Source: Paenibacillus lutimineralis (lineage in GTDB: Bacteria > Bacillota > Bacilli > Paenibacillales > Paenibacillaceae). Taken from it: DNA of 64,000 bases. The DNA lies in contig NZ_CP034346.1 of NCBI RefSeq assembly GCF_003991425.1, positions 347,501 through 411,500 of the forward strand. The letters run 5' to 3'. Under the pieces are notes generated by a model. The model saw only the letters and a program-made list of their open reading frames with translations. It searched no databases and was not told the DNA's origin. The translations under genes and the position numbers were made by a program. Shown piece after piece: positions 313-21,804 of the stretch (position 1 is its first letter; each line of letters starts with the position of its first letter).

Positions 313-342
313 GTATTCTCTAAGAGAATACAGTGTGATTGT

Positions 343-426: not shown

Positions 427-430
427 AATT

Positions 431-505: not shown

Positions 506-506
506 T

Positions 507-583
507 GCGCCCTTAGCTCAGCTGGATAGAGCGTTTGACTACGAATCAAAAGGTCAGGAGTTCGAATCTCTTAGGGCGCGCCA
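507..583 (+). tRNA. tRNA-Arg (ACG)
   Basis: The acceptor stem GCGCCCT pairs with AGGGCGC. The anticodon stem TTTGA/TCAAA encloses CTACGAA, giving anticodon ACG (expected to be edited to ICG). CCA is encoded. Confidence 0.97.
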
Positions 584-612
584 TTTATATCTTAGCAGTA
601 ATATTTACACAT

Positions 613-695
613 GCCGGTGTGGCGGAATTGGCAGACGCGCGCGACTCAAAATCGTGAGGGAAACCGTGGGGGTTCGAGTCCCTTCACCGGCACCA
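613..695 (+). tRNA. tRNA-Leu (CAA)
   Basis: The acceptor stem GCCGGTG pairs with CACCGGC. The anticodon loop CTCAAAA gives anticodon CAA. The long variable arm fits tRNA-Leu. CCA is encoded. It is the second leucine tRNA of the cluster, with a different anticodon. Confidence 0.96.
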
Positions 696-702
696 TAGTT
701 AT

Positions 703-779
703 CGGGATGTAGCTCAGCTTGGTAGAGCACCTGGTTTGGGACCAGGGGGTCGCATGTTCGAATCGTGTCATCCCGACCA
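703..779 (+). tRNA. tRNA-Pro (TGG)
   Basis: The acceptor stem CGGGATG pairs with CATCCCG. The anticodon stem CCTGG/CCAGG encloses TTTGGGA, giving anticodon TGG. CCA is encoded. Confidence 0.97.
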
Positions 780-787
780 TTTAATTT

Positions 788-858
788 GCGGGTGTAGTTC
801 AATGGTAGAACTCCAGCCTTCCAAGCTGGTAGCGTGGGTTCGATTCCCATCACCCGCT
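788..858 (+). tRNA. tRNA-Gly (TCC)
   Basis: The acceptor stem GCGGGTG pairs with CACCCGC. The anticodon stem CCAGC/GCTGG encloses CTTCCAA, giving anticodon TCC. Unlike the other seven tRNAs, CCA is not encoded (TTA follows the acceptor stem), so it must be added by CCA-adding enzyme. It is the last gene of the cluster. Confidence 0.95.
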
Positions 859-963
859 TATTACAGATAGACAATTTATATAATAATTTTAGAAACGCAC
901 TTACCTTAAGAATTAACTTGGAAAGTGTGTTTTTTGTTGCGCGGTACATTAAAATTAATCTCT

Positions 964-994
964 AAAAGCCTAAATTATTTGGTTGTAGGCTTTT
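964..994 (+). terminator. Hairpin ending the tRNA operon
   Basis: A perfect nine-base inverted repeat, AAAAGCCTA / TAGGCTTTT, closes a 13-base loop and ends in four T. It lies about 100 bases after the last tRNA. A second weaker stem (AACC..GGTT, bulged) followed by TTTTTT lies at 1029-1053 and may be the actual stop. The rest of the 859-1216 gap shows no gene. Confidence 0.6.
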
Positions 995-1216
995 AAAATC
1001 TTACTATATAATTGCCATGCAAATCCATAACCGCACGAGGTTGTGGGTTTTTTCTATATTTAGGGTATTACTGTAATGAGACGTGATGTCAGGAGTATTC
1101 TATCGGGATTATGTGGTGCATACTCCTATGCTATAATTATATATAGCGCAGTTTCATTCGGAAAAATCACATTTCCTATATATAAATCTATTGGACAAGG
1201 GGTGCATTGACCAACC

Positions 1217-2533: not shown

Positions 2534-2565
2534 AGCCATTAGAAAAAGGAATGAATTCAACACAT

Positions 2566-3987: not shown

Positions 3988-4355
3988 TTGGCTGAAAAGC
4001 GACAGCAATTTGAAACGTATACAATAGAACAAAAGATGCGAGCCGTTGAGATGTATTTACAAGGGGGAGTGAGTTATCAAACCGTAGCGAATATTTGCGA
4101 GTCCGGGGTAGTAGCCAGGTAAAAGTTTGGGTCAGGAAACATCGAGATAACCATACGTTAGAAGATCATCGAGGGAAACATACAAACTCTAACCCTATTA
4201 TTGGTCGACCACGTTCGAAGTTTTCTAGCGTGGAAGAAGAACGGGATTATTTGAAAGTGCAGGTGGAGTTCTTAAAAAGCGCAATCCAAATCTATTCGGG
4301 AGGGATCATTCCGAAAATAAATCGTTTTGAAATCATATCTTCGTTAACCTCCTAA
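3988..4355 (+). pseudogene. Degenerate IS3-type transposase orfA
   Basis: A TTG start at 3988 lies five bases after GGAGGGGA and opens an OrfA-like reading frame with a helix-turn-helix (EQKMRAVEMYLQGGVSYQTVA). It then runs into a stop after CESGVVAR. The expected continuation, SSQVKVWVRKHRDN, is in another frame starting near 4100, so one frameshift separates them. The second part continues through a coiled segment (EEERDYLKVQVEFLKSAIQI) and ends at 4355, where OrfB should begin. No catalytic DDE domain is present. It is a dead fragment of an IS3-family element, and no clear terminal repeats were found. Confidence 0.75.
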
Positions 4356-5434: not shown

Positions 5435-6568
5435 TTAATCTGTAATTAAATCATTTTGAAAAGTGAGCTTATCACTTTCACTTATTGATTTAATAATACC
5501 TTCGTCTATATCCCTCCCCTGAATATTTCTTAATTGTTTATCAACTAAATATGAAACCTTATTGTTATCTACAGATACAGTATAAGAAAGTTTTGCTCTC
5601 ATTTTACTGTCCCCATCATACACTTTTAATTCAATACGGCTACTTATATCTAATTTGTTAAATATTAAATCATTAATAAAATCTGTGTCTCCCAATAAAA
5701 CTCGATCTCCAGTAACCCGTGATAACTTGCCATAACCTCTAAACACTAGCTCTTCATTATTAAACAATTTCACCATAAATCTCATGTTTTCAAATCCAAT
5801 TGGGAATATTATATTAAATTCATAACTAGGTGTATCACCAATTTCATGATTACGATAAATATCTATTCTTGGGGCAGTTACAAAGATAATCTCATTTACA
5901 TCTGCATCTTGTTTTACAAGAAAGTTAATGTCATATATTTGTTTCAGCTTAGGTAAAAAACCTTTGCTAACAGGATTCTTATTTAGTCTGATTAAATTGA
6001 CAAAAATAACAATTCCAAGTAAGAGTAGACATAAAATAAACCAAAACAAATATATTCCTTGGTTCATTAGGATTTCTTTATCTAAAGAAAAAAATAAAAA
6101 TAATCTATTCTCAGTATAAGCAGTAACAGCTACTCCCCATATTGTTATAGATGCAATTGAAGTTAGAGTTAGTAATCCATGTATTATACTCAGCATGATT
6201 CCTTTGTTAACATAAGTACTGTAATCATTTAAAGAAGTTTTTACAACCTCATATGATAAACCATACGGTTTATAGTATTGCCTTAATACTCTTGAAGCTT
6301 CTATGTGCTTATTATCGTAAACAAAGGCAACAAACAATGATAAAAATGAGATTAATCCAATGTTTCCCGCAAAAATCCAACTCGCCAATTCGATTTTATC
6401 TTTCATGGAGTCTGTCAATGAATAGTTTAAGTTGCTGGAATAATGATAATATACTATCACCCCAACAATGGACGTAATCACCAAATGAAGGCTGAGCCAT
6501 TCAATTATTAATTTGAGAGTTTTGCATAGATACTTCACAAGAAGGTTAAATATAGCTTTCAAGGACAT
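5435..6568 (-). CDS. Four-pass membrane protein of unknown function (cassette gene 3)
   Basis: The product has 377 residues from ATG 6568, eight bases after AGAGGAG; a TTG at 6571 is the alternative. Four hydrophobic segments lie at about residues 24-43, 62-84, 123-150 and 171-193. A soluble, mostly beta-predicted C-terminal half of ~180 residues should face the cytosol. I do not recognise the family. It overlaps the preceding gene by about 20 bases and closes a minus-strand three-gene operon. The high AT content contrasts with the housekeeping genes and suggests transfer. The pairing of a membrane protein with two soluble partners recalls membrane-effector defence operons, but no known effector domain is visible. 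Confidence 0.7.
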   Translation of the reverse strand: MSLKAIFNLLVKYLCKTLKLIIEWLSLHLVITSIVGVIVYYHYSSNLNYSLTDSMKDKIELASWIFAGNIGLISFLSLFVAFVYDNKHIEASRVLRQYYKPYGLSYEVVKTSLNDYSTYVNKGIMLSIIHGLLTLTSIASITIWGVAVTAYTENRLFLFFSLDKEILMNQGIYLFWFILCLLLLGIVIFVNLIRLNKNPVSKGFLPKLKQIYDINFLVKQDADVNEIIFVTAPRIDIYRNHEIGDTPSYEFNIIFPIGFENMRFMVKLFNNEELVFRGYGKLSRVTGDRVLLGDTDFINDLIFNKLDISSRIELKVYDGDSKMRAKLSYTVSVDNNKVSYLVDKQLRNIQGRDIDEGIIKSISESDKLTFQNDLITD

Positions 6569-7160
6569 CAATAATCTCCTCTAAATTACTGTTATCATGA
6601 AATGAAAAAACAGAAGTGCAATCTAAATCAAATTGAAACCATGAGTTGGTTATAAGATTTAGATTCATAATATCTGTTGAATTCAAGAGGAAGTCTAACT
6701 CTTTCAAGTTCTTGTCTGCAAGTTCAACAGTAAAATCTTTCTCAATATCATTATCTAACGAAGTTCTAAATTGTATAGACGCTATGTCATGAAATTTTGT
6801 GTTGTGGTTATTAGATTGTAATAAAGATACTAGCTCATCAAAAACGTTTTTTTTAGTAAAACTGAGAGAAAATATTTCATTGAATTTTCTTATTACAAAT
6901 GCTACATCGCTTTCAGAATTACTAAACAATGCAAAAGAAGAACGTTTTTTAAAGTACACAATTAGTACGCGCTTCTTACTTCTTGTAATAATCTTATCTC
7001 TGTAACGAACAGTATCAACCCATGAGTATTCGCTAACCTCATGGGTCTGGCTTTTTTCAAGTATTGTATATTCTTCAAAAATGTTAATTTTAACAGAACG
7101 AGGTGGCGAGAGAACTTCATTTGAAACAAATACTGTACATTCTTTTGCAAAAAGTTTCAT
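6546..7160 (-). CDS. Unknown soluble protein (cassette gene 2)
   Basis: The product is 204 residues with no signal peptide or membrane segment. ATG 7160 is preceded by a strong GGAGAGGGGAG. I see no known motif. The sequence is rich in Phe, Ser, Asn and charged residues and reads as an alternating beta/alpha domain. It starts 24 bases after the stop of the 417-residue gene and overlaps the membrane-protein gene downstream, so the three are almost certainly translated from one mRNA. Confidence 0.65.
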   Translation of the reverse strand: MKLFAKECTVFVSNEVLSPPRSVKINIFEEYTILEKSQTHEVSEYSWVDTVRYRDKIITRSKKRVLIVYFKKRSSFALFSNSESDVAFVIRKFNEIFSLSFTKKNVFDELVSLLQSNNHNTKFHDIASIQFRTSLDNDIEKDFTVELADKNLKELDFLLNSTDIMNLNLITNSWFQFDLDCTSVFSFHDNSNLEEIIDVLESYI

Positions 7161-7184
7161 AACTCCCCTCTCCTGTTATATCAT

Positions 7185-8438
7185 TTATTTTTGTAACCAT
7201 TTTTCAATAGGAGACATTACACCATCAATATCTTCATATCCTATTGATTCCAAAATTACGCGTGTATTTTCTAAATACTTTCGAATTTCTTGCTTATGAG
7301 AACTACTAACGCCACCTAAGATGTTTCCAATCACTTCAACGTTTGACACAGTGTTCAATTCAACTATTTCAGATAGGAATTGCTCTTTTTCTTGGAATCT
7401 TATTAAGACCTGTTCCAACAAAATTTTTATATTGTTTAAATCGGAGATTCCATGCTCACACATTGCAATATATTCATCTTGTATCAACTCTATAACTTCA
7501 TTTCTCAATTCATCATTCGAAGTATCCGCCACCACAATTTTTAGTATATCCAGCGCTTTCCCTTTTAACGCAAAAGAACAGCTTAGTTTAAACGCTTTAT
7601 AACTTATAGAGGTTTTAAACTGAACAATGTCTTTCCCTAAAGTAATATATTCACATGCTAAAGGATAGTTAATAATATCTCTTCCGTTTATAGTGACATC
7701 CTTAATTTCATCATTACCTACTTTAAATTTGATTTCTTTAAAAGAAGCACCAATATTCTTAACTTTCAATCTATTATTAACAAGGTCTAGGAAAAGCGCA
7801 GTCTTGTAACTTACATTATCCTCCCAAGACAAACCACTTCGCACATTCAAAATCCTACAGTCAACTATCGGGAGCCTAAAAATACTTGTTAAAAAATTAC
7901 GAATTATGCTGTGTACTTCATCGTCCCCAGAGAAAATAGTGACTACTTTCTTCGACAAATCAATTTTAACCCTGCAATTGTTTATAGCTGTTAGTCTATC
8001 TAGCGTTTTCTCACCTGTCAGCCATTGCCCTTCATATTCCTTAACAATTAATAAAAGATGAACAACATTATTATCCATACATTCAAGAACAGAAGATACT
8101 TGATACACACTTGATACAGCATGTTCTTCTTTTTTGAAGTATGTCCGAAGTTCTTTTTCTCCTTTACCATTAAAAAATGATGTATTAGAAAGCTTATGGG
8201 TATACGCAGGGAGTCCCTTACTTTTTTTGGTAACACTATATTCAACAAAGCTAATTAATTCTTTTTCCGTAACTGACTTTTTAAGCTCTAAGAAATACGG
8301 GAGAAGTTCTTGTTTTGAATATCTTTTCTTCTTTCCTTCTTTAGGCTGTGGGAAAAGCCCAATTTCTTTTAGCTTTTGAACCACTTCATCATAGTTCAAC
8401 TTGTTAAAATATTTTCTAAGGATTGATTCGGGATTCAT
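7185..8438 (-). CDS. Unknown 417-residue protein (cassette gene 1)
   Basis: This is the first gene of the minus-strand cassette. ATG 8438 follows a very strong site (GGGGGAGGGAG). The N-terminal ~90 residues are basic and helical (EGKKKRYSKQELLPYFLEL). They could be a small nucleic-acid or protein-binding domain. The middle (~150-300) looks beta-rich, and the C-terminal third is helical. No catalytic motif, Walker motif or membrane segment is visible, and I do not recognise the family. The next gene starts 24 bases after its stop. AT-rich composition and location between a guaA remnant and decayed mobile DNA mark it as accessory. Confidence 0.65.
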   Translation of the reverse strand: MNPESILRKYFNKLNYDEVVQKLKEIGLFPQPKEGKKKRYSKQELLPYFLELKKSVTEKELISFVEYSVTKKSKGLPAYTHKLSNTSFFNGKGEKELRTYFKKEEHAVSSVYQVSSVLECMDNNVVHLLLIVKEYEGQWLTGEKTLDRLTAINNCRVKIDLSKKVVTIFSGDDEVHSIIRNFLTSIFRLPIVDCRILNVRSGLSWEDNVSYKTALFLDLVNNRLKVKNIGASFKEIKFKVGNDEIKDVTINGRDIINYPLACEYITLGKDIVQFKTSISYKAFKLSCSFALKGKALDILKIVVADTSNDELRNEVIELIQDEYIAMCEHGISDLNNIKILLEQVLIRFQEKEQFLSEIVELNTVSNVEVIGNILGGVSSSHKQEIRKYLENTRVILESIGYEDIDGVMSPIEKWLQK

Positions 8439-10101: not shown

Positions 10102-11039
10102 TTATATTACTCGATACTGCTGTAAGAGACTCTCTACCCGATCCTGCAGTGCTTGCTTTAAGATGTCAGGCTTCACGGATACCACATCTTGCCAAACCTT
10201 ATAAAATAATCAGCTATAAACTCCTCTTCTTCCGGATTGTAGAACCCCTTAATAACAGATTTATCGCCCGTTTCTAGCCGCATGGAAGGATAATGCTCCT
10301 TATAAAACAGATCCTCGGCTTGCTCAGAGATTTCCACCTCGAAGTGAATACTATTCTTAGATTGATACATCTCCATGGAGCGATTCACAAGCTCATCTAT
10401 AGAAAAGCGGGACTGCGCGTCCACTTCCACAATTGAAGTGATCCGGTCACATCTGAATACCCGGTACTTATTCGTACTTAGCTCGATTCCAGTAGCATAC
10501 CATTGACCGAACTTGGCTGAGATTTTGAAGAATTGCACCTCGTAGCTTGTTTCCTGACTATTTTTCAAATATTGAATCCTACAGGGGCTCTCATGAAGAA
10601 TGCTCATTGAATCTGGTCCAAATAAGGCTCACATGATGATGCTGATACATCTCTAATTTCAGAACCTGCTTCATCTTGCGAATCTGCTCGATCTGCCCGT
10701 CAGATAGACAGTGCTCAAACTTCTCATTTAGTTGATTCACAGAGATGGAAGGGGGTTGATTGATAAGCCTCCAGCGTTAACATGGCAAAATACAGAGCAT
10801 ACACTTCATCCATCGTGAAAATAATAGGAGACAGCAACCGATTTTGCAGGATTCCGTACCGTCCATGTCTTCCATGCTCCGAATAAATCGGCATGCCCAA
10901 TTGATCTAATGAGCTGATATCCCGCAGCGCCGTGCTTTTGGAAATATGATATTTATCCATCAGGTCCTGTAAATTAAAGAACTTCCGGCCGTTCAAGTAC
11001 CGGATCATGTCGTTCAATCTTTACGATTTCTTCATCCAT
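10102..11039 (-). pseudogene. YafY/WYL-domain transcriptional regulator, frameshifted
   Basis: ATG 11039 (RBS AAGGAG) opens MDEEIVK. After a frameshift near 11020 the frame continues as a helix-turn-helix (LNDMIRYLNGRKFFNLQDL, then STALRDISSLDQLG). A second shift near 10730 leads to NQLNEKFEHCLSDGQIEQIRK. A third near 10620 enters the WYL domain (ILHESPCRIQYL ... FGQWYATGIEL). A fourth near 10187 restores the expected end, VVSVKPDILKQALQDRVESL, and a TAA at 10102. The gene is dead by at least four indels. It was divergent from the VOC gene at 11332, a common pairing of YafY regulators and their targets. Confidence 0.85.
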
Positions 11040-12156: not shown

Positions 12157-12184
12157 TTGTCGTAATGGTTAATCTTGATATAAT
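12157..12184 (+). promoter_or_regulatory. Promoter of the methyltransferase cassette
   Basis: TTGTCG (12157-12162) and a perfect TATAAT (12179-12184) are separated by 16 bases, about 25 bases before the first gene. This sigma-A-type promoter implies the cassette is transcribed as its own unit. No operator-like palindrome or control-protein gene is visible. Confidence 0.65.
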
Positions 12185-12214
12185 GGAAACAAACGTTCGA
12201 AGAAAGGTATGAAT

Positions 12215-13825
12215 ATGAGAGTAGCTGATTTTTTTTGTGGTGCTGGTGGATTTTCTGAGGGTTTTAGACAAGCTGGTTTTGTAACTGTTTTCGCAGTTGA
12301 CAAATGGATGCCTGCTGTTAATACACACCATGGAAATCATCCGCACTCTAATACTATCCTGGATGATGTTGAGAGAATATCCTTGCTTCCAGATAAAGAA
12401 TTTCATGAGTTAGTTCCAGACACTGAGATAATAATTGGATCACCACCTTGTGTAGCCTTTTCCAATTCTAATAAATCAGGGAAAGGAGATAAGTCACTTG
12501 GAATAAAGTTACTAGAATCTTATTTGCGGATAGTGGCAAGAAAAAAATTTAGAACTAATTCTAGATTAAATTATTGGGTGCTTGAGAATGTACCGAATAT
12601 CGAAAAGTACATAAAACCCTTGTATACTGCCCAGGATTTAGGGCTAGAAGGGGATTTTACACTACAAGTTTTGTATGAGAATTCTGGTGTTTATAATTCA
12701 AAGTATTTTGGCGTCGCTCAAAATAGAAAAAGATTCTTATGTGGTCAGTTCCCAGACCCACAACCAACTATTATGACAGATGAAGACATATTACCCTTGA
12801 AAGCAATTCTTGATTCATTAGGAGATCCTGGTGAAGAAATGGACTCTCTTATCACTGATCCCAATAACAATTTCAGAATGATTTCAAGAGATGTTACCGA
12901 TCATCACTATATCAAGGAGCTCGCAAGACATGAATGGAAAAAAGCAAAACAACTAAAAGAAGACAAGGGTTACATGGGGAGAATGGCCTTTCCTGAAGAT
13001 AAAAATAAGCCTGGTAGAACTGTTATGGCTAATTCATCCGTGTCTTCTAGAGAATCTGTCATATATGCCTACAAAAAAGATAGATACAGGACACCAACAG
13101 TGCGGGAATTGGCATCAGTTATGAGCTTCCCTATTGATTATCGATTTTATGGTGAATCAAGAGGAATAAAATCGAAATTAGTTGGCAATGCGGTACCCCC
13201 AAAAATGGCGTATGCATTTGCTAAATCAATGGCTGAAAGCTTAGGGAGAGAGGTTCCAATTCTATATAGACCGATTCAGCATTCAAGTAATTTTAATTTT
13301 ATTAACTTAAATAATGCTGTGTTTTCTATTAATAAAGAAAAACCTAAAAGAGACTCTGCTCGATTTAAGTATCATATACCGTACTTAATAATTAATGCAT
13401 ATCGAGTCGAACTAACCAATTATAAATCAGACTTTAAAAATAAAGATTATCAATGGAGTGTAGAGATTCATAAAAGCCAAGGACCAAGAGCAAAGGTGTT
13501 TGAGCCAATTGTTCACTCAAAGGTATTTGACGAAGAAACTAATAAAGAAATTGAGTTGTACATTAACTCTATTCAATCCCAGCTAGTTTCCTTTAATAAA
13601 TTCCAAAAGCAATATTGTCTAACCACTGAAGAGAGACAGGGGTCATTGGGACCGAATGAACTATTAGAATCAGTCAAAGAACTGATAGAAGAAATAATAC
13701 AAGTAAATTTTAATGAGTCCATTGAAATTGATGAAAACCCTCAAAAACTTCCAACGGCGATTGCAATTGGTTATTTCGTTCTAAAAAGAATAATAGAAAT
13801 GATGAGGAGACTTAAAGATGAATAA
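12215..13825 (+). CDS. DNA C5-cytosine methyltransferase with C-terminal extension
   Basis: A DNA (cytosine-5) methyltransferase that would mark host DNA. ATG 12215 is eight bases after AGAAAGG; ATG 12209 is only two. In numbering from 12209, motif I is FFCGAGGF (8-15), motif IV GSPPC with catalytic Cys81, motif VI ENV (126-128), motif VIII QNRKR (171-175), and motifs IX-X include GNAVPP (326-331). Residues ~345-538 form an extra domain absent from ordinary Dcm/HpaII-type enzymes, with no motif I can name. The gene overlaps the ParB-like gene by eight bases and heads the four-gene cassette. AT-rich composition suggests horizontal origin. The recognition site cannot be predicted. Confidence 0.93.
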   Translation: MRVADFFCGAGGFSEGFRQAGFVTVFAVDKWMPAVNTHHGNHPHSNTILDDVERISLLPDKEFHELVPDTEIIIGSPPCVAFSNSNKSGKGDKSLGIKLLESYLRIVARKKFRTNSRLNYWVLENVPNIEKYIKPLYTAQDLGLEGDFTLQVLYENSGVYNSKYFGVAQNRKRFLCGQFPDPQPTIMTDEDILPLKAILDSLGDPGEEMDSLITDPNNNFRMISRDVTDHHYIKELARHEWKKAKQLKEDKGYMGRMAFPEDKNKPGRTVMANSSVSSRESVIYAYKKDRYRTPTVRELASVMSFPIDYRFYGESRGIKSKLVGNAVPPKMAYAFAKSMAESLGREVPILYRPIQHSSNFNFINLNNAVFSINKEKPKRDSARFKYHIPYLIINAYRVELTNYKSDFKNKDYQWSVEIHKSQGPRAKVFEPIVHSKVFDEETNKEIELYINSIQSQLVSFNKFQKQYCLTTEERQGSLGPNELLESVKELIEEIIQVNFNESIEIDENPQKLPTAIAIGYFVLKRIIEMMRRLKDE

Positions 13826-15086
13826 AGATTTGAGAATTAAAAAGTTGAAAGAGATTATGGAAAATGATACTCCTTATATGACGGGTATAAGAATAAGATA
13901 TAAGGGGGAGATTCAAGAATTTAAAGCTTACAAAATTCCATTAGAATTCCTTATATATAATAAATACAACGGAAGGATTGGAAGTGTTGTGAAGTCTTTT
14001 GAAAAGCAACATAGATCAATCAATCCTGAAGATCTAGAGGATAGAAAAAGACTTGAAGGATATTTATATGAATCAAAACCTGGCAGAAATGAAGCAACTC
14101 TTAAAAACTTAATCGAAAATGGTCAACAACAATATGGGATAGTAACTAACGATGGTGTAATTATTGATGGAAATAGAAGAGCAAGCTTATTAAATAAAAT
14201 TTATAGTGATAGGAAAAGGTGGCCTAATCATAATCTCGATCATTGTCGGTATTTCATAGCTGTTATCCTTCCAGATACTCCCGAGCCTAAAGAAATCATG
14301 AAGTTAGAAACTACGTATCAAATGGGGGCGGATGAGAAACTTGATTATAATCCTATTGAAAAATATCTTAAGTGTAAGGATTTAAAGGATGTAGGTTATG
14401 ATGAACCCGATATAGCAGATATGATGGGTGAGAAAGAGAGTACTATCAAAGAATGGCTTGAAATTATGGAACTTATGGATAGCTATTTGGAGTATTTAGA
14501 GTACACCGGAATATATACAAGATTAGAAAAACGCGAAGGTCAATTTGTTGATTTAAATGCATATTTAAAGGCGTATAAAAAAGGAACCAACAAAGTCGAG
14601 TGGGGTGTTAAAGAATCTGATATTTCAGATTTACAAGCAGTTTGCTTTGACTATATTAGAGCTCAGTATGAAGGCAAAGAATTTAGATCAATTGCAAAAC
14701 CAAGTAAAAAAGAGGGGATTTTTTGTCATAAAGAAATATGGGAATCATTTTTAAATGAGCATTCTAAACATGTAGATTCTATAACAGAGGATTCACCTGA
14801 GAAATTGTATAAAGACAATAGTGAAGGTGATTTGTCCAAGTTACTTGAAGCAAGGGATGAAATGTGGACTAAAAATGCTAGAGGATTATTACAAGGGAAT
14901 TTGAATATTTCGGTAAGGAAATTAGAAGATAAGAAGGATGCAAATCAACCTTTAGAGCTATTGAAAAGGGCAAAAAATGCACTTGAAGCTATTAACCCAG
15001 ATGCACTCGATAAATATAACCTAGATCTTGTTAAAGAGATTAGCTCAATAGTTTGGGATTATAAAAAAATAATTGAAAAGAAATAG
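13818..15086 (+). CDS. ParB/RepB-like nuclease-fold protein
   Basis: The product has 422 residues and no membrane segment. The region YGIVTNDGVIIDGNRRASLL (residues 106-125) carries DGNRR, the ParB/Srx-like box 'DGxRR' that in this superfamily binds or hydrolyses nucleotide. Downstream, PDIADMMGEKESTIKEWLEI looks like a helix-turn-helix as in KorB/ParB. The C-terminal half is charged and helical. In ordinary ParB it would accompany ParA; none is present. Here it sits between a DNA methylase and a SNF2 helicase, overlapping the former. A sensing or DNA-loading role in a defence complex is my inference. Confidence 0.75.
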   Translation: MNKDLRIKKLKEIMENDTPYMTGIRIRYKGEIQEFKAYKIPLEFLIYNKYNGRIGSVVKSFEKQHRSINPEDLEDRKRLEGYLYESKPGRNEATLKNLIENGQQQYGIVTNDGVIIDGNRRASLLNKIYSDRKRWPNHNLDHCRYFIAVILPDTPEPKEIMKLETTYQMGADEKLDYNPIEKYLKCKDLKDVGYDEPDIADMMGEKESTIKEWLEIMELMDSYLEYLEYTGIYTRLEKREGQFVDLNAYLKAYKKGTNKVEWGVKESDISDLQAVCFDYIRAQYEGKEFRSIAKPSKKEGIFCHKEIWESFLNEHSKHVDSITEDSPEKLYKDNSEGDLSKLLEARDEMWTKNARGLLQGNLNISVRKLEDKKDANQPLELLKRAKNALEAINPDALDKYNLDLVKEISSIVWDYKKIIEKK

Positions 15087-15098
15087 GTGTGACTGAAT

Positions 15099-17060
15099 AT
15101 GCAGATAGAGGTCGGACTTAACGAAGAAAATAGTAAATTTGTTTTAGCTGGCTCGACAAATGAATTATTAAATAATCGAAGAGCTAAGATTTATATGAAG
15201 GACTATTTAAAAGCAAAAGTAGTTGGTAACGAAATTATAATTCCATATGAAGAAGAAAATCAAGAAAAAATTTTAACGAATATAAGAGAAATGATAACAA
15301 AGTATGGATTTGAAGAAATAAAGTCGGATCAAGTTGAGAAAACACTAAAAGACTACTATCAAGAAGAAGAAAACTTTAGTGTGTTCTCTAAACAGGCATA
15401 TGAAATACGAAATAATAACTTTGATATAGAGGACTTCGCAGAGTTTACAAAGAGTCTTACACATAACCTCAAGAACCGTTCTTTGTATAAGTTACAGTTG
15501 CTATCTGCGTATCATTTGGCATTTTCCCAAAATGCGTGTAACTTCTCGGTTCCAGGAGCGGGGAAAACGAGTATTGTTTATGGGGCATATACATACCTAA
15601 AGAATCTTAGTCCAGAGAACCCTAAGCATATAAATAAAATTTTAATAATTGGCCCCTTAAGTTCTTTTGGTCCTTGGGAGAATGAGTACGAGGAATGTTT
15701 CGGAATAAAAGCAAAATCTAAGAGACTCTCAGGAGGCATGACAAAACAAGAAAAGTCCAAATATTTATATTCGTTTGAACCTGCTGAGTTGACCTTAATG
15801 TCATATCAGTCAGTAAGTAGTGTCATCGATGATCTAATTTACTTTATTAAAAAGAATAAAGTTATGGTAGTACTAGATGAGGCACATAAGATTAAGAATA
15901 CTGAAGGGGGAATAATTGCTGACTCAGTACTTAGTATTGGAAAGTACTGCAAAGCTAGAGTCGTATTAACTGGAACTCCGGCCCCAAATGGTTACGAAGA
16001 TCTAATGAACTTATTTCAATTCTTATGGCCATCGAAACAAATAATTAGATTTCACAAGTATCAACTTAAGGAAATGTCAGAAAACCCACAAGATAAAAGA
16101 GTCCAAGAATTGATAGATGATATTTCACCATATTATATCCGAATTAGAAAAAGTGATTTACGTTTGCCGGAAGCGATTAATCATCCCCCAATAATTACTG
16201 AAATGGGCTCACATCAAAGACAAATATATGATTTCATTGAAAAGAACTATATGGACTATATTATAGATAAAAGTGATTCAAGCGATATTAGAGGAGCGTT
16301 AATTAAAGCTCGTATGGTTAGGTTAATGCAGGCTGCAACAAATCCTAGTTTATTATTGAAGCCAGTTGATCAATATTTTAATGAGCATGGATTGACTGAT
16401 AGAACAAATGTAGATGATTCAGAGGTAATAAATAAAATAATTAAATATAAAGAAATTGAAACACCTGAGAAATATAGAGTAGTATTAAAGCTAGTAAATG
16501 ACATCCTGAATAAGGGCGAAAAAGTAATAATTTGGGCTATTTTCAATCAAAATATGAAAGAATTACAAGAGTTTCTGAAAAATAATGCTATTGAATCTAG
16601 ATTACTTTATGGTGAAGTTCCTGTAGAACTGGATGAGAAACAATTAGAATATGAAACCCGTGAAAGTATTATTAGAGACTTTCATGAACAAAATTCAAAG
16701 TTCAGTGTCATTATTGCGAATCCGTTTGCAGTATCAGAATCGATTTCTTTACATAAAGCATGCCACAATGCTATTTATTTGGAACGTACATTTAATGCGG
16801 CACAGTTCATTCAATCTAAAGATAGAATACATCGGTATGGATTAAAGTTTAATGACAAAGTAAATTACTTTTATGTACTATCCAATGATTCTATAGACCA
16901 GACAGTACACGAAAGACTTGAATTTAAAGAGAACAGAATGAATCGTATTATTGAAAATGAACCGATACCTCTTTTTTCTTTAGTTGATGAGGATGATTTT
17001 GGTTATGACGATGTAAGGACGCTGATTAATAATTATGTTAACAGAGTTAAAGAGGTATAA
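15099..17060 (+). CDS. SNF2-family DNA helicase/translocase
   Basis: The 653-residue product is an SF2 helicase of the SNF2/RapA class. Walker A is PGAGKT (152-157), motif II DEAH (260-263), motif III TGTP (291-294), and motif VI QSKDRIHR (572-579) with its arginine finger. About 130 residues precede the helicase core and may form a separate domain. It lies 12 bases after the ParB-like gene and overlaps the next reading frame or abuts it. SNF2 translocases occur in DISARM (DrmD) and other restriction-like systems. The domain call is firm; the role in defence is inferred from context. Confidence 0.9.
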   Translation: MQIEVGLNEENSKFVLAGSTNELLNNRRAKIYMKDYLKAKVVGNEIIIPYEEENQEKILTNIREMITKYGFEEIKSDQVEKTLKDYYQEEENFSVFSKQAYEIRNNNFDIEDFAEFTKSLTHNLKNRSLYKLQLLSAYHLAFSQNACNFSVPGAGKTSIVYGAYTYLKNLSPENPKHINKILIIGPLSSFGPWENEYEECFGIKAKSKRLSGGMTKQEKSKYLYSFEPAELTLMSYQSVSSVIDDLIYFIKKNKVMVVLDEAHKIKNTEGGIIADSVLSIGKYCKARVVLTGTPAPNGYEDLMNLFQFLWPSKQIIRFHKYQLKEMSENPQDKRVQELIDDISPYYIRIRKSDLRLPEAINHPPIITEMGSHQRQIYDFIEKNYMDYIIDKSDSSDIRGALIKARMVRLMQAATNPSLLLKPVDQYFNEHGLTDRTNVDDSEVINKIIKYKEIETPEKYRVVLKLVNDILNKGEKVIIWAIFNQNMKELQEFLKNNAIESRLLYGEVPVELDEKQLEYETRESIIRDFHEQNSKFSVIIANPFAVSESISLHKACHNAIYLERTFNAAQFIQSKDRIHRYGLKFNDKVNYFYVLSNDSIDQTVHERLEFKENRMNRIIENEPIPLFSLVDEDDFGYDDVRTLINNYVNRVKEV

Positions 17061-17064
17061 TAAT

Positions 17065-18012
17065 TTGGGAAGTGTAAATGAAGTAATTTATCTACTAACT
17101 GAAACATTAACAGATGAACCGAAATCAATAAGTGATATTGAAAAATTCTGCTTGAGTAATACCTCACATTACAACATCCCTTCTAAAGGGATTGTTGCTT
17201 TGCTAGAGTTTATTTCAGCTATTACTTATTGTGAAAGAGGGGTATTTCTAAACGAATTTGGACATGGATTATCAAAATCGGTCATTGATGGTACTACCTC
17301 CAGGAAAATTGTAGAGAAATTACTTTCGAAAATCTTGCTGGAAGGGATGTATTCTGACTTTTTAGACTTAGAATCAATTAGCTTTGATTTTATTCATGAA
17401 GCTTACACTATTAAAAATAGCCATATTCCGTTCAAATATTCTGGAATTAGAAATTTATTAATTAACTATGGTTTTTTTAAATATAATTCTAATTCAAATA
17501 TATTATTGATAATTGATAAGAGTTATACGGATTTTTTGAAAGAAATTTTAAAAACTGTTCGTAAGAAACTTAGTATAGAAAAATTCAAAGAAATGCTAAT
17601 GTTAAAGGAGAAATATGGACAGGAAGCCGAGGAGTTTGTTCTAAACTATGAAAAAAAGCGTCTTTCGGGTCATATTCATCTAGAAAAGTTATCTCAGGTG
17701 TCAGTAATTGATGTCAAAGCAGGATATGATATCATCTCATTCAACTCATTAAGCTCAGAAGTATACGATAGATTTATAGAGGTAAAATCGTATTCAAACA
17801 ATTTGAGCTTTTATTGGACGAGAAATGAGATTGAAACTTCAAAAAATAAAGGAAAGAGTTATTACTTATATCTAGTAGATAGGGATAAGATGAATCAGAT
17901 TGGTTATCAACCACATATTATTGCTAATCCGTACATAAATGTATTTAAAAATAATGCTTGGAAACGGGAGCCAGAGACTTGGTTTTTTCGAAATGATGAC
18001 GAAAATCACTAA
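17065..18012 (+). CDS. DUF3883 (NO VEIN C-terminal) nuclease-like protein
   Basis: TTG 17065 is eight bases after AAAGAGGT and gives 315 residues; ATG 17035 would overlap the helicase gene by 26 bases. The N-terminal ~180 residues are helical with no known motif. Residues ~185-275 (TTG numbering) match DUF3883: EEFVLNYEKKRL, GYDIISF, FIEVKSYS, then FYWTRNEIETSKNKG and YYLYLV. D222, E239 and K241 form a D...E-x-K pattern typical of PD-(D/E)XK nucleases. It is the probable DNA-cutting subunit and last gene of the cassette, so methylase, translocase and nuclease are all present. Confidence 0.85.
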   Translation: MGSVNEVIYLLTETLTDEPKSISDIEKFCLSNTSHYNIPSKGIVALLEFISAITYCERGVFLNEFGHGLSKSVIDGTTSRKIVEKLLSKILLEGMYSDFLDLESISFDFIHEAYTIKNSHIPFKYSGIRNLLINYGFFKYNSNSNILLIIDKSYTDFLKEILKTVRKKLSIEKFKEMLMLKEKYGQEAEEFVLNYEKKRLSGHIHLEKLSQVSVIDVKAGYDIISFNSLSSEVYDRFIEVKSYSNNLSFYWTRNEIETSKNKGKSYYLYLVDRDKMNQIGYQPHIIANPYINVFKNNAWKREPETWFFRNDDENH

Positions 18013-18017
18013 TAAGT

Positions 18018-18134
18018 ATGGGGAAGTACCGTAAAGAGACCACGAATTATTTTCCAATTGATATTGCTTAGGAATGGGATGGTATTAAACCAGTTTTAAC
18101 AATTGTGTATGATAATGGTGATCTCATTCTTTGA
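18018..18134 (+). pseudogene. Short broken reading frame after the cassette
   Basis: ATG 18018 gives MGKYRKETTNYFPIDIA, then a TAG stop, and the same frame continues EWDGIKPVLTIVYDNGDLIL to a second stop at 18134. One nonsense codon in a 39-codon frame suggests the vestige of a small gene. I do not recognise it. It may mark the right boundary of the acquired segment. Confidence 0.3.
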
Positions 18135-18165
18135 ATGGGAAGTTTCTATTTTTATAGGTATCATT

Positions 18166-18195
18166 CCACCCCTCACCGGGTGGTTTCTTCTTTTT
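18166..18195 (+). terminator. Terminator after the defence cassette
   Basis: CCACCC (18166-18171) pairs with GGGTGG (18178-18183) around a six-base loop, followed by the T-rich TTTCTTCTTTTT on the plus strand. It overlaps the 3' end of the minus-strand XRE gene. Confidence 0.55.
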
Positions 18196-18403
18196 CCACC
18201 AACTCAATAATCTCCCGAATATCACTAATATCCAGCGCCTCCGCGATCCTTTCAATATGACTGAAACTAATGCTTTCACGTTTGCCGTTAGCGAGCTCAC
18301 TTAAAGCCGCGTGACGAACATCAGAAAGTCTGGATAATTCCCTCAGAGATATCTTATGTTTTTTGGTTAGTTCTCCGATCTTCACGACAACTTTCTTTCC
18401 CAT
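18173..18403 (-). CDS. Small XRE-family HTH regulator
   Basis: ATG 18403 is preceded by AGGGGTGAG at good spacing and gives 76 residues; the frame stays open for 15 codons upstream but lacks a site there. The protein is a single Cro/C1-type helix-turn-helix: KIGELTKKHKISLRELSRL, then HAALSELANGKRESIS, SFSHIERIAEALDIS. It is probably a transcriptional repressor. It is divergent from the gene at 18581. Two copies of a 16-base repeat lie between them and are the likely binding sites, so auto- and cross-regulation is expected. Confidence 0.85.
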   Translation of the reverse strand: MGKKVVVKIGELTKKHKISLRELSRLSDVRHAALSELANGKRESISFSHIERIAEALDISDIREIIELVEKEETTR

Positions 18404-18434
18404 TTTACTCACCCCTAATTGAATCATTCCCAGC

Positions 18435-18495
18435 TTGACTATACGCATAAGCGTAACGTATAATATTTTTATTAGTGGTACGTATAAACGTAACG
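18435..18495 (+). promoter_or_regulatory. Promoter with paired operator repeats (XRE target)
   Basis: TTGACT (18435-18440) and TATAAT (18459-18464), 18 bases apart, form a plus-strand promoter for the gene at 18581. The repeat ACGCATAAGCGTAACG (18443-18458) fills the spacer. A second copy, ACGTATAAACGTAACG, is at 18480-18495, just past the start point. Each contains an inverted repeat (ACGC-ATAA-GCGT and ACGT-ATAA-ACGT). The placement predicts repression by the adjacent XRE protein. Confidence 0.65.
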
Positions 18496-18580
18496 ATCAT
18501 GCATTTATATAGAATTATCAATAAGGGAAGAAAATAGTTCTTGGTCATGACTTTGACACACTCAGAAAGGAGGCAATCCC

Positions 18581-18925
18581 ATGCCGCCCCTAATTGAATC
18601 CCTATACCACGGCTGCCTGATCCCCGAGGAGCAGGTAGTCCCGAAAGATCCACAATATCGCGAGTGCAGCAAGAAATTATCCGAGGCAATGGAAGTTTGG
18701 AAGAAGAGAATGTCTGCGGAGGAGTTTTCGAAGCTTGAAGAGTTACTGGATTTGCAGCAGGAAATTCAGGGGATGGAGATGGCATCGGCGTTTACGTATG
18801 GGTTTAAGTTAGGGGCGTTAATGATCATTGAGGTGCACTTCGGGGATGAGCCAAAGGGACCTTTCAAATTGAATCAAAGTGAAGGTTTAGGAAAATATCA
18901 CTGGGGTTCTCGCGAGGACACCTAG
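18581..18925 (+). CDS. Small DUF6809-like protein
   Basis: The product has 114 residues and starts at ATG 18581 after AAAGGAGG. It is predicted helical and soluble: EYRECSKKLSEAMEVWKKRM-like segments, then LLDLQQEIQGMEMASAFTYG and FKLGALMIIEVHFG. This pattern fits a short Firmicutes family that I recall as DUF6809, often beside XRE regulators; its function is unknown. The last ~20 residues (after FGDEPKG) do not look conserved and may be a read-through tail. Family assignment from memory is moderate. It is probably controlled by the divergent XRE gene. Confidence 0.6.
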   Translation: MPPLIESLYHGCLIPEEQVVPKDPQYRECSKKLSEAMEVWKKRMSAEEFSKLEELLDLQQEIQGMEMASAFTYGFKLGALMIIEVHFGDEPKGPFKLNQSEGLGKYHWGSREDT

Positions 18926-19288
18926 CAGTTAAGCCTCCATCTTACTTAGAAGCGCAACTGACTATATTACGTTAGAACCTCCCCGTTAACAGAGGAAAGC
19001 CTGGCCAACTGGCCAGGCCTTTTTGTACCACGCTGCCTAATACCACGCTGTAAATATCATGCTGCTTGGGGAACACGCTACTTACCCACGTCCACGACTC
19101 AATGCCATCCTTTATCTTTGCTCCTCCAAAGTATCTATTCCCAAACAACGCCGCCAGCCCCAGCCCAGACCTTCAATACCTGCAAAGTGCATGGTATATT
19201 TACTATGTCATCACGAATGATAGAGCCAATGTAATCATCGTATAGAAGGCCCTTAAAGTTCTTCTACAATTCACATAAGGACGTGATT
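18926..19288. other. Intergenic region
   Basis: It contains the strong terminator at 18999-19024 and a short direct repeat (TACCACGCTG, starting near 19026 and 19041). No coding frame or riboswitch was recognised. The promoter of the MBL-fold gene is not obvious. Confidence 0.4.
18999..19024 (+). terminator. Strong rho-independent terminator
   Basis: GCCTGGCCA and TGGCCAGGC form a perfect nine-base stem on a two-base spacer (effectively a longer stem with a small loop), followed by CTTTTT. It ends the 18581 gene transcript. Confidence 0.85.
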
Positions 19289-20152
19289 ATGATAGCTGCG
19301 AAGAAAGGATCTGCATTGATTCAAGAGGTTCATCAGACAGAGGTTCCGTACGGGACTCTGGCGATCTGGTTCCTCGGTCAGGAGAGTGTTATCGTCAAAG
19401 GGGATGACGTAACTATTTATATTGATCCGTATGTGTCAGATTTTCTGGATCGGAATGGGCCGGTGCGGTCATATCCTGCTCCGATTTGTCCTAAGGACAT
19501 TACGCAAGCGGATCTGTGCCTGATTACTCATGAGCATGTCGATCATATGGATGAAGGAACTATTACGGTGTTTCACGCTCAGAATGGCAGTGCTCCACTC
19601 ATAGCTCCGGCCTGCTGTCATCAGGATCTACGTCGTATGGGAGTAAGTGACTCGTCTATTCTGACGGCGGATGTAAGTGAACCGATAGAACTGTTCTCCA
19701 AGCTGAAGATTACGGTGATTCCTGCTGCGCACGAACAGCTTGAACAGGATGATAGGGGGCATTACCGTAGTGTTGGCTACGTGCTTGAGCTTAATGGGGT
19801 GACTTTATACCATGCGGGGGATACAGTGATTTATCCTGGACTAACGGAGCGGATTGCGGAAATTTCGCCCGATGTTGCGATGCTGCCGATTAATGGCGGG
19901 GATTATTATCGCAGGGAAGAGGGCATTGTCGGCAACATGAATTACCGGGAAGCTGCAGAGTTAGCGGTCCGGAGTAAATCCGAGACGGTCATACCGCTGC
20001 ATTATGATGTTTTCGCCGGAAACAGCGAGAAGCCGGGTTACTTCCTCGATTATTTGTACGAGAGGTATCCCGAGCAGAAGTGTCACATCATGGCACGTGG
20101 GGAACGATTCGTGTATGTGTCTCCAAGAGCTTTTGTTCAGCAATCATCATAG
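19289..20152 (+). CDS. MBL-fold metallo-hydrolase (UlaG-like)
   Basis: ATG 19289 is seven bases after AAGGA; GTG 19283 in the same frame is too close. The 287-residue protein is a metallo-beta-lactamase-fold hydrolase. The metal motif HEHVDHMD matches HxHxDH. Further ligands are probably H in IPAAHEQ, D in YHAGDTV and H in IPLHYDV. The overall pattern is nearest UlaG (L-ascorbate-6-phosphate lactonase). No other ula genes are nearby, so the substrate is unknown. It is a single-gene unit preceded by a strong terminator. Confidence 0.85.
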   Translation: MIAAKKGSALIQEVHQTEVPYGTLAIWFLGQESVIVKGDDVTIYIDPYVSDFLDRNGPVRSYPAPICPKDITQADLCLITHEHVDHMDEGTITVFHAQNGSAPLIAPACCHQDLRRMGVSDSSILTADVSEPIELFSKLKITVIPAAHEQLEQDDRGHYRSVGYVLELNGVTLYHAGDTVIYPGLTERIAEISPDVAMLPINGGDYYRREEGIVGNMNYREAAELAVRSKSETVIPLHYDVFAGNSEKPGYFLDYLYERYPEQKCHIMARGERFVYVSPRAFVQQSS

Positions 20153-20200
20153 GACATATCTAGCATATGAAGGATGTTGTCCGCTGAGATATATAGTCTA

Positions 20201-20249
20201 ACGGCGCTGCTAGGTTTCCATCAGAAGATTCAAAAGATAGCAGCGCCGT
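20201..20249. terminator. Long hairpin before the HAD gene
   Basis: ACGGCGCTGCTA (20201-20212) and TAGCAGCGCCGT (20238-20249) are a perfect 12-base inverted repeat with a 25-base loop. No T run follows. It may terminate the MBL-fold gene without a U tract or act as an mRNA-stabilising or leader structure for the next gene. Confidence 0.45.
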
Positions 20250-20278
20250 GTACATATATAGTTTAGGGGGAGTGCCGA

Positions 20279-20956
20279 ATGGCCACGATCCAAGTCATCA
20301 GCCTAGACATGTTCCAAACCCTAGTCAATTTAGACAACAGATTCCTATCCATGTGGAGTCGGATTCTTAAGGATCAGTATAATGCGAGCGAAGCGAGGGT
20401 CCTTCAAGCCAAGCTGATTGAGCAATACTATGTCGTTGCTAAGCGGATGCGTGAGAATCAGCAGTTTGTTCTAACCAGAGAAATTTACCGAGAGTGTTTC
20501 GATAAATTACTCCCCAGTCTGGGCATAGCTTTTGATTGTGCTGAAGCTGTAGATATTCTGGTGCAGGAGCATCGGCAAGCGGATTTATATGAAGAAACGC
20601 TGGATTTCTTAGATTTCATTCATAAGAATTATCAGGTCTGCATTGTCAGTGATACCGACGAAGATATGCTGCCGCGTTTTTTTGAGGCTTACCGGATACC
20701 TCTGTTCTCCTCGGAGAAATACAGATCCTATAAGAATGATCACGACAACTCCATGTTCCAAGAGATAATCAAATACTACGATATAGAACCCGCGAGAATT
20801 TTACATATTGGAGATACCTTGTCCGATGTCGTCGGAGCCCAAAGAGCCGGCATCCAAGCCTGCTGGATCAATAGGCAGAATGAACCGTGGAAGCTTGAAG
20901 CACCACCTGACTACACGATTCGGAATTTGAATGAGATTAGAGATCTACTTCTGTAA
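20279..20956 (+). CDS. HAD-superfamily hydrolase
   Basis: A 225-residue haloacid-dehalogenase-type phosphatase. Motif I is LDMFQTLV with nucleophile Asp10; the usual second Asp is Phe, as in the L-2-haloacid-dehalogenase/YfnB-like branch. Motif II is CIVSDTDE, the motif III lysine lies in KYRSYKN, and motif IV is HIGDTLSDVVGAQRAG. A helical cap lies between motifs I and II. ATG 20279 follows GGGGGAG. The substrate cannot be inferred from the neighbours. Confidence 0.88.
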   Translation: MATIQVISLDMFQTLVNLDNRFLSMWSRILKDQYNASEARVLQAKLIEQYYVVAKRMRENQQFVLTREIYRECFDKLLPSLGIAFDCAEAVDILVQEHRQADLYEETLDFLDFIHKNYQVCIVSDTDEDMLPRFFEAYRIPLFSSEKYRSYKNDHDNSMFQEIIKYYDIEPARILHIGDTLSDVVGAQRAGIQACWINRQNEPWKLEAPPDYTIRNLNEIRDLLL

Positions 20957-21025
20957 TGAATTTGCCGCTATCCATTGTCTCACTTCGTTCTTTTTTTTGT
21001 ATATATGGAGTTTTGGTTATCATCA

Positions 21026-21058
21026 TATAATATAGAATAAATAGGTAAACTATTTATT
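21026..21058 (+). promoter_or_regulatory. -10 box and palindromic operator upstream of SDR gene
   Basis: A perfect TATAAT (21026-21031) is followed by a perfect palindrome with arms AATAAATAG (21036-21044) and CTATTTATT (21050-21058) around GTAAA. Its place at the expected start point suggests binding by a TetR- or MarR-type repressor. No such gene is adjacent. A convincing -35 box was not found. Confidence 0.5.
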
Positions 21059-21084
21059 AGATGCAGATATGGAGGAAATTAGAG

Positions 21085-21804
21085 ATGCAACTTACCAATA
21101 AAACGGCCATCATTACTGGAGCAGGAAAAGGGATCGGAAAATCAATCGCAATCGCTTTGGCGAAGGAAGGCGTACATCTCGGCCTAATTGCACGCACAGC
21201 CACTGATCTAGAATCATTGCAAAGTTCTTTGCAGACGGAGCATTCCGTTAAAGTATTTATCGCGACAGCGGATATTTCCAATCAACAAGAAGCTGAAGCT
21301 GCCGTACTGAAACTTCAGGAGCAGCTTGGTTCCGTAGATATTCTAATCAACAATGCGGGAATCGCTCAGTTTGGCACATTTATGGACATGGAACCAAGTA
21401 CATGGGAACGAATTATTCAAGTGAACTTGATGGGGACTTACTATGTGACCCGTGCTGCACTTCCGTTCATGTTGGAACAAAATAGTGGAGATATCATCAA
21501 CGTGGCTTCCACCGCTGGTGAGCGTGGTTTTGCCACGGGTTCCGCTTATTGTGCGTCTAAGTTCGGCCTTCTCGGCTTAACGGAGTCTCTATTGCAGGAA
21601 GTTCGCAAATCGAACATTCGGGTAGTTGCGCTAACACCTAGTACGGTTGCTACGGATTTAGCAGTTAATGCTGGATTGAAAATTGGGGACGAAGATCGGA
21701 TGATGCAACCAGAGGATGTTGCCGAGCTGGCACTGGCTACCTTGAAATTGCCTTCCCGTGTGTTTATCAAAACGGCAGGTATTTGGACGACTAACCCGCA
21801 GTAG
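21085..21804 (+). CDS. Short-chain dehydrogenase/reductase (FabG-like)
   Basis: ATG 21085 is placed 11 bases after GGAGG; the frame is open from 21061. The 239-residue protein has the classical SDR layout: TGAGKGIG nucleotide-binding motif (residues 12-19), NNAG, catalytic Ser in INVASTAG, and YxxxK in AYCASK. It resembles 3-ketoacyl-ACP reductase-like proteins such as YueD/YvaG but is not in a fatty-acid cluster, so the substrate is open. A double hairpin terminator follows. Confidence 0.88.
   Translation: MQLTNKTAIITGAGKGIGKSIAIALAKEGVHLGLIARTATDLESLQSSLQTEHSVKVFIATADISNQQEAEAAVLKLQEQLGSVDILINNAGIAQFGTFMDMEPSTWERIIQVNLMGTYYVTRAALPFMLEQNSGDIINVASTAGERGFATGSAYCASKFGLLGLTESLLQEVRKSNIRVVALTPSTVATDLAVNAGLKIGDEDRMMQPEDVAELALATLKLPSRVFIKTAGIWTTNPQ

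Follow-up and report, generated by a model that had tools for sequence, protein, structure and literature searches.

A candidate restriction-modification-like defence system built around a predicted ParB-fold protein in Paenibacillus lutimineralis

The DISARM class 2 system, which consists of DrmA, DrmB and DrmC with DrmMII and DrmD, resembles the locus described here in its C5-cytosine DNA methyltransferase (C5-MTase) and its SNF2-type helicase. According to the accessible parts of the respective papers, the CglI and NgoAVII systems comprise a DNA methyltransferase (MTase), a nuclease and, as a protein of its own, a helicase-like ATPase, and cleave near the site in a nucleoside triphosphate-dependent manner (PMC5737866; PMC4267653); systems related to Dpd, Dnd and BREX combine the ParB-superfamily protein DndB and/or a SWI2/SNF2 helicase with modification-based self/non-self discrimination (PMC10853773; PMC12839542); and restriction-modification operons with HEPN and DUF499 proteins pair DUF3883, a novel restriction endonuclease (REase) domain, with a SNF2 helicase (PMC3710099). 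Here, we report a four-gene operon of Paenibacillus lutimineralis, located in a 64,000-nucleotide stretch of contig NZ_CP034346.1 (positions 347,501 to 411,500; the window hereafter), which encodes a C5-MTase (MT), a predicted ParB-fold protein (PB), a SNF2-family ATPase (SN) and a NOV_C/DUF3883 protein (NV). We propose, with a probability of about 60%, that MT-PB-SN-NV is a restriction-modification-like defence system that discriminates DNA by its methylation and has an exchangeable effector, and the family appears to be undescribed and unnamed so far.

The four-gene operon and its relatives

The four genes are intact, lie on the plus strand at window 12209-18012 according to the open reading frame (ORF) calls, and are coupled: MT and PB overlap by 8 nt, PB and SN are separated by a gap of 12 nt, and SN and NV overlap by 26 nt. 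MT (12209..13825, 538 residues) carries the C5-MTase domain PF00145 (E 7.7e-39, Pfam scan), and its start may be 12215, because the identical database entry P0121 has 536 residues. Its motifs P79-C81, ENV, R173/R175 and GN are invariant in 45/45 aligned rows, and residues 1-348 of the predicted structure (predicted local distance difference test score, pLDDT, 92.2) match M.HaeIII and DNMT1 in a structure search. The remaining C-terminal extension of about 190 residues (roughly residues 348-538, window 13250..13822) is predicted to be a sensor/recognition or partner-docking domain; 205-231 residues follow the GNxV-type motif in 44/44 near-full-length MT rows, and L402, N404, W416 and Q466 are invariant within the extension. 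Two further MT homologues of 694 residues, P0139 and P0170, are fused to PF03852, which we take to be the Vsr mismatch endonuclease domain.

SN (15099..17060, 653 residues) matches PF00176 (E 7e-23) and PF00271 (E 8.3e-9), with PF04851 likewise above cut-off among the four proteins, and its GxGKT, DEAH and TGTP motifs and R576/R579 are invariant in 75/75 rows. NV (17035..18012, 325 residues) consists of a putative N-terminal adaptor domain and a PD-(D/E)XK nuclease domain of the NOV_C/DUF3883 family (PF13020, E 9.4e-16), the sole nuclease domain that the Pfam scan detected in the operon; D232, E249 and K251, presumably the catalytic residues by family knowledge, are invariant in 69/69 rows. 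A PDB sequence search with NV returned nothing usable. In 64/66 loci where both are assigned on the plus strand, the SN/NV overlap measures 11-35 nt, and the remaining two give -59 and 0. Split SN reading frames were seen in two loci (L164, 5636-8865; L022, 11304-13259), and in L164 a 279-residue ORF on the opposite strand lies between the SN halves in an insertion-like manner.

For PB (13818..15086, 422 residues), the Pfam scan gave no match above cut-off and a PDB sequence search with the PB alignment nothing usable, while its structural model, with a predicted helix-turn-helix (HTH) and helical C-terminus, matches ParB-CTPase structures. Its motifs NxxNxR, DGNRR and ETxxQ are invariant in 80/80 rows and probably correspond to ParB Box I-III, as named in a survey of ParB-CTPase-fold proteins, the accessible part of which reports that various members bind CTP, ATP or GTP (PMC12704722). 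The best PADLOC match of PB was PD-Lambda-5, described in the accessible part of its source as a compacted restriction-modification plus abortive infection system (PMC9519451); at E 0.0025 this is too weak for a claim of kinship, which was rejected.

All four proteins were thus borne out as the preliminary description of this DNA had read them, namely a C5-methyltransferase with all motifs, a ParB-like protein with DGNRR, a SNF2 protein with intact Walker and arginine-finger motifs and a DUF3883 protein with a D...E-x-K pattern, encoded by consecutive, co-oriented genes that overlap or are spaced by at most 12 bases. It had named as a refutation that the same four families do not recur together in other genomes, but they do. 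A contig scan with a single sequence as the query found no relative. When the GTDB species genomes were searched with the PB alignment, 101 relatives were found; the analysis covers the best 80 of them (79 distinct loci), so that the set is biased to closer relatives. A census with profiles derived from these loci (E <= 1e-3, hits counted at any place in flanks of up to 10 kb) detected a C5-MTase in 79/79 loci, SN in 77/79 and NV, entire or just its N-terminal domain, in 73/79, and MT lies -80 to +43 nt from PB in the 41 MT loci measured. NV is lacking in six loci (L055, L056, L057, L059, L071 and L018); a Sau3AI/MutH-like gene occurs in L055, L056 and L057, directly 3′ of SN in the latter two, and the L018 stretch stops inside SN.

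The hosts are phylogenetically scattered over Bacillota, Bacteroidota, Anaerolineales, proteobacteria and candidate phyla, and of 7621 scored candidates, clustered at 90% identity, 2341 are PB homologues at E <= 0.001, a Methanolobus protein being one of the homologues. Inside groups, the PB-SN-NV module is sparse: 6/295 genomes of the window's family have a match, its own genome counted and one other being close (77% identity), as do 6/350 and 6/395 genomes of two other orders, the starting genomes counted. The system also occurs on predicted viral contigs of IMG/VR, where 12 loci carry PB in 12, a C5-MTase in 10, the DpnII/BanI-like gene A3 introduced below in 10 and NV in 9, and in a Streptococcus prophage record. 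The motif counts above come from alignments of near-full-length assigned rows, the window included (MT 45, PB 80, SN 75, NV 69; truncated, TIR-bearing and low-scoring rows left out). The pairwise identities of the module genes vary together (Spearman 0.78 for PB-SN, 0.80 for SN-NV and 0.68 for PB-NV), while those of MT track less tightly (0.48 with PB and 0.56 with SN).

Exchange of methyltransferase partners and effectors

PB-SN-NV is a portable module that is found in two MTase layouts. In the window's layout, the extended MT is present in 47/79 loci, namely 45 with SN and NV plus L018 and L059. In the second layout, a different C5-MTase (M2) is present in 32/79 loci, with 17-30 residues after the GNxV-type motif in the 25/32 rows where the pattern was located, and a Type II REase-like gene lies in the same stretch in 32/32: A3 (DpnII/BanI-like) in 24, a Sau3AI-like gene (D5) in six, and BglII/BamHI-like genes in L003 and L039, the L039 assignment being below the Pfam cut-off. 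At least five changes of the MT/M2 label are needed on the SN tree, which was built by a quick method with Shimodaira-Hasegawa-like approximate likelihood ratio test (SH-aLRT) support only and without L019, L042 and L079, whose MTase is truncated or below threshold; the window SN groups with that of L003, which belongs to the M2 layout (support 85, unstarred). Since the MT extension and the REase-like gene replace each other in the set, we propose that they do the same job.

To assess the REase-like partners, 22 full-length A3 proteins were aligned with 13 DpnII-family proteins from other genomes. The comparators were drawn from the window's phylum (family present in 17/348 genomes), because the family occurs in 0 of 149 genomes of its order; 17 loci were scanned from 19 places, the 13 with a DGxGW ORF were kept, one of them a 156-residue fragment, and four were dropped. 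D228 and E241 of DpnII, which we take to be its PD-(D/E)XK carboxylates, are D and E in 13/13 DpnII-family rows. Among the 22 A3 rows, the first position is D in none and E in two, and the second is E in none and D, N or K in 10, 9 and 3, respectively, so acidic residues at both positions occur in 0/22 even when a one-residue misalignment is allowed at the first, and DGAGW is kept in 22/22. Because no row retains the full acidic pair, A3 probably only recognises DNA without catalysis of its own.

The idea that every Type II REase partner has lost catalysis was rejected as a general rule, as L003, L050, L056, L057 and L071 keep a catalytic pattern. The BamHI/BglII-like partner of L003 retains the residues aligned with those that we assume to be catalytic in BamHI, and the Sau3AI-like partners of L050 (NV present), L056, L057 and L071 keep D...ELK; the Sau3AI-like partner of L022 (NV present) has lost the catalytic pattern, and the REase-like protein of L039 appears degenerate. 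PDB sequence searches with the A3 alignment and the L039 protein returned nothing usable.

The effector of the PB module is, to judge from gene content, exchangeable too. In L004 (Pedobacter planticolens), the gene at the NV position overlaps SN by 35 nt and encodes the NV N-terminal domain (E 1.8e-20) with a TIR domain (PF13676, E 1.3e-12) in place of NOV_C. In L059 and L163, MT is followed by PB and then by a PGAP1-like alpha/beta-hydrolase gene, and SN is missing from the stretch; in L071, which its layout identifies as the L161 locus, PB and an alpha/beta-hydrolase gene lie beside Sau3AI-like and M2 genes; and in L015 and L044 a second PB with an alpha/beta-hydrolase gene adjoins a standard system. 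These variants suggest that PB is a trigger whose output can be abortive.

PB-SN pairs are found in more distant company as well. Those of L166 (6456-7391) and L167 (12363-13286) lie beside D12-class N6-adenine MTase genes, and in L167 a PNP_UDP_1 nucleoside phosphorylase-like gene lies just upstream of PB. Those of L081 and L082 (Enterococcus plasmids), L170 and L171 are preceded by a protein of 860-940 residues without clear domains (one of the four was domain-scanned), and may represent a further type of system that conjugative or mobilizable plasmids carry as well.

Proposed mechanism and rival explanations

Several lines of evidence underlie the restriction-like reading: the co-occurrence of the genes, the SN/NV overlap, the invariant motifs, the co-variation of PB, SN and NV and the repeated change of MTase partner; the loss of the A3 acidic pair while NV stays intact, and the fusion of the NV N-terminal domain to TIR in L004; and the carriage on viral contigs and a prophage, together with the position of the operon in an island by a tRNA cluster, where a relative carries an alternative MTase/helicase cassette. 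Based on these findings, we propose a system of the ATP-dependent restriction-modification kind, probably CTP-dependent too, that would be a modular family rather than a fixed four-gene cassette. First, the C5-MTase would mark the host's own sites, as its family suggests. The MT extension, or the Type II REase-like protein in the sister systems, could then identify unmarked sites, and PB, given its predicted fold and HTH, could respond to this signal by closing on the DNA as a nucleotide-gated clamp. Upon clamping, SN, which has the motifs of an ATP-driven motor, would be recruited to pump DNA and to deliver NV, docked via its N-terminal domain, and NV, with its conserved catalytic residues, would cut the unmarked DNA. 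In relatives, the same sensor core may drive a TIR protein, a Sau3AI-like nuclease or an alpha/beta-hydrolase. The preliminary description had already proposed methylation-based self/non-self discrimination with a translocase-linked nuclease and a ParB-like clamp or sensor; this is still the best reading, at the level of inference, and what it had not foreseen is the swapping of partners and effectors and an REase-like partner that is apparently dead.

A number of observations weigh against this proposal. The defence function is deduced from sequence and structure prediction. No fold match was obtained for the MT extension, the structure-search matches listed for the MT model covering residues 1-348, and its part in DNA binding and recognition is a presumed one; in loci of the window's layout, no A3- or D5-type gene was found by profile, other REase families not being screened. 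The role of a dead REase as recogniser is not universal, because L003 and L050 combine an apparently intact Type II REase (BamHI/BglII-like and Sau3AI-like, respectively) with NV. No MTase was identified at the distant PB-SN pairs of L081, L082, L170 and L171, the nucleotide of PB could be ATP or GTP instead of CTP, and cell suicide accounts for the alpha/beta-hydrolase and TIR variants more readily than the cutting of foreign DNA does.

The last point leads to the strongest rival, a guard or abortive system built on restriction-modification, in which PB and the MTase sense the loss of methylation or the inhibition of restriction-modification and a toxic effector kills the infected cell without any selective cleavage of foreign DNA. 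We hold it to be a serious minority possibility, one that the PB-paired hydrolases lacking SN (L059, L071/L161 and L163), the second PB copies of L015 and L044 and the TIR effector of L004 all invite, and the intact-looking Type II REases of L003 and L050 would let the module act as a second layer there. However, the primary nuclease would have to be NV, because its domain is the only nuclease domain found in the window operon and the profiles detected no A3- or D5-type gene in MT-type loci, other REase families not being screened; the near-constant presence of SN suggests movement along DNA; and a backup role leaves the consistent loss of the full A3 acidic pair unexplained. Far less probable is a Type IV-like, modification-dependent system in which PB, SN and NV attack foreign-modified DNA, with the MTase as a decoy or a neighbour that has nothing to do with them: NOV_C-like regions do occur in other PADLOC defence proteins, such as PD-T4-1, but the C5-MTase accompanies PB in every locus of the census, at close distance where MT was measured, and the MT motifs are invariant. 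The least probable reading is that the operon is not a defence system and serves the partition or stabilisation of a mobile element, with methylation-based addiction; the ParB fold and the occurrence on predicted viral contigs would speak for it, but the operon lies in a chromosomal island beside a tRNA cluster and SNF2 proteins and nuclease or TIR effectors are unusual in partition systems.

The restriction-like proposal may be part of something broader. Tentatively, and with less confidence than in that proposal, we consider a new immune class, in which a nucleotide-switched ParB clamp would be the universal sensor that reads methylation via a docked DNA-recognition partner, either the MTase extension or a Type II REase that lost catalysis and turned into a specificity subunit, and fires interchangeable effectors, either a motor with a nuclease, a motor with TIR or a lipase-like hydrolase. 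If true, this class would bring restriction-modification and effector-based abortive immunity together in a single architecture, and would hold, to our knowledge, the first ParB clamp shown at work in defence. Should the restriction-like proposal hold, there would be a widespread defence family that appears to have had no name until now, perhaps because each component looks generic, and a natural experiment in modular immunity with one sensor core and several effector kinds, wherein restriction enzymes apparently lose catalysis yet keep their place in a restriction operon. The nucleotide-gated clamp of ParB, known from chromosome segregation, would then become directly testable in the recognition of foreign DNA.

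Island setting and relation to described systems

The operon lies in a variable island whose left edge is formed by eight tRNA genes (window 28-858). In the sister genome G717, the shared tRNA cluster (window 17-960) and the shared right flank (window 18170-21323) bracket a different 9-kb cassette (L128, 4851-13859) with a C5-MTase, a GHKL-type ATPase with zinc ribbons, an Mrr/ResIII helicase and a 235-residue protein of no named family; further ORFs there read like pieces of a second C5-MTase. Because G717 carries another cassette between the same flanks, the site takes different DNA-modification cassettes. No att-like exact repeats of at least 12 bases were found between window 1-1100 and 17951-18700. 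A promoter-like site (TTGTCG-16-TATAAT with a TG extension, 10/12 matches; 12157..12184, plus strand), which is not evidence of function, precedes the operon, and a terminator-like hairpin (18166..18183, plus strand; hairpin scan and G717 comparison) at its end adjoins the island boundary at about 18170. The promoter and terminator of the preliminary description therefore exist as sites, but neither class is clearly above shuffled sequence: 42 promoter-like sites were counted against 33.4 (standard deviation 5.8) in shuffles, no clear excess, and 3 hairpins against 3.0, the chance level. Its AT-rich operon stands as well, the GC content being 30-35% versus 42-54% in the 10 kb rightward; the DNA to the left (4-12 kb) is AT-rich too (GC 29-43%). 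The surrounding mobile-element scars that it named were not confirmed, the one candidate examined (4095-4355) giving no Pfam match.

Elsewhere in the island, three consecutive AT-rich genes on the minus strand (5435-8438; 378, 204 and 417 residues) gave nothing above cut-off in Pfam or at E 0.001 in PADLOC, where only AbiJ_NTD4 came up, at E 0.049 in the 417-residue protein, and are possibly a second undescribed cassette. Also on the minus strand, a WYL-domain ORF and a separate HTH_11 ORF (10173-11017) resemble a broken HTH-WYL regulator. Two tandem paralogous genes (1217-3891, about 73% DNA identity) look by eye like FAD-dependent oxidoreductases, and the counterpart of this pair in G717 sits about 88 kb from the tRNA cluster.

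Scans with PADLOC component profiles, covering the four proteins of the operon plus five ORFs from elsewhere in the window, gave no component set of one named system, so that the absence of an exact match held at the component level, and NCBIfam and Pfam scans of the four proteins gave component-level matches only. MT hit, among the best 25 of its 46 matches, MTase_II, DruM, DrmMII and orphan-MTase models; SN matched ZorD, DrmD and DpdE helicase regions in part; and NV matched PD-T4-1, TmtA and PDC-S36 over the NOV_C region only. The MT-PB-SN-NV combination was not found in the full-text PubMed Central (PMC) literature among the matches listed, where preprints and subscription journals are thinly covered. 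Two leads were set aside on the accessible text: a paper on SpyI and phage Phi1207.3 that contains the words ParB, SNF2 and methylase concerns scattered genes and an LlaJI-like system, and a Prevotella SNF2/RAD54 lead concerns an m6A system.

Compared with DISARM class 2, SN covers only part of the DrmD profiles (E 1.4e-8), and PB and NV are extra. The earlier statement that DrmA, DrmB and DrmC are absent holds for DrmB and DrmC, with no match among the scanned proteins (for MT, among the best 25 of 46), while the DrmA profile gave only a partial match, to the helicase domain of SN (E 1.8e-5). The Type I layout does not fit, as had been stated, since the Pfam and NCBIfam scans found no HsdS, HsdM or HsdR domain among the four proteins, and the Pfam scan found no Type II REase family in the window operon. 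Relatives of the classical Type II enzymes DpnII, Sau3AI and BamHI/BglII do lie near the C5-MTase in sister loci, but there an ATP-dependent module is added, and in the DpnII-like partners the acidic pair is never complete. The Dpd-, Dnd- and BREX-related systems differ in their PglZ, DndC- and TGT-type domains, which the Pfam scan did not find in the four proteins, and the accessible parts of the two papers do not describe the MT-PB-SN-NV set (PMC10853773; PMC12839542). The ParB-CTPase-fold proteins of the survey share with PB the fold and the conserved boxes, and the survey links orphan ParBs to mobile elements, but its main text lacks the word SNF2, and an MTase-SNF2-nuclease operon was not seen in its accessible part (PMC12704722). 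In the HEPN/DUF499 operons, as far as the accessible text describes, DUF3883 and the SNF2 helicase are fused beside a DUF499 AAA+ ATPase (PMC3710099), whereas here each has a gene of its own, the two genes overlapping, in the company of PB and a C5-MTase. CglI is the best mechanistic analogue and, with NgoAVII, the closest functional one with biochemistry known to us, with no homology claimed. Neither a CglI/NgoAVII-type R subunit nor a DEAD-family helicase ATPase came up in the Pfam scan, whose only domains above cut-off in the four proteins are PF00145, PF00176/PF00271/PF04851 and PF13020. In CglI and NgoAVII the ATPase belongs to the DEAD family and the two restriction proteins assemble into an R2H2 complex, with ParB unmentioned in the accessible parts of the papers (PMC5737866; PMC4267653); the system proposed here has a SNF2 ATPase, a NOV_C nuclease and a central ParB-fold protein instead.

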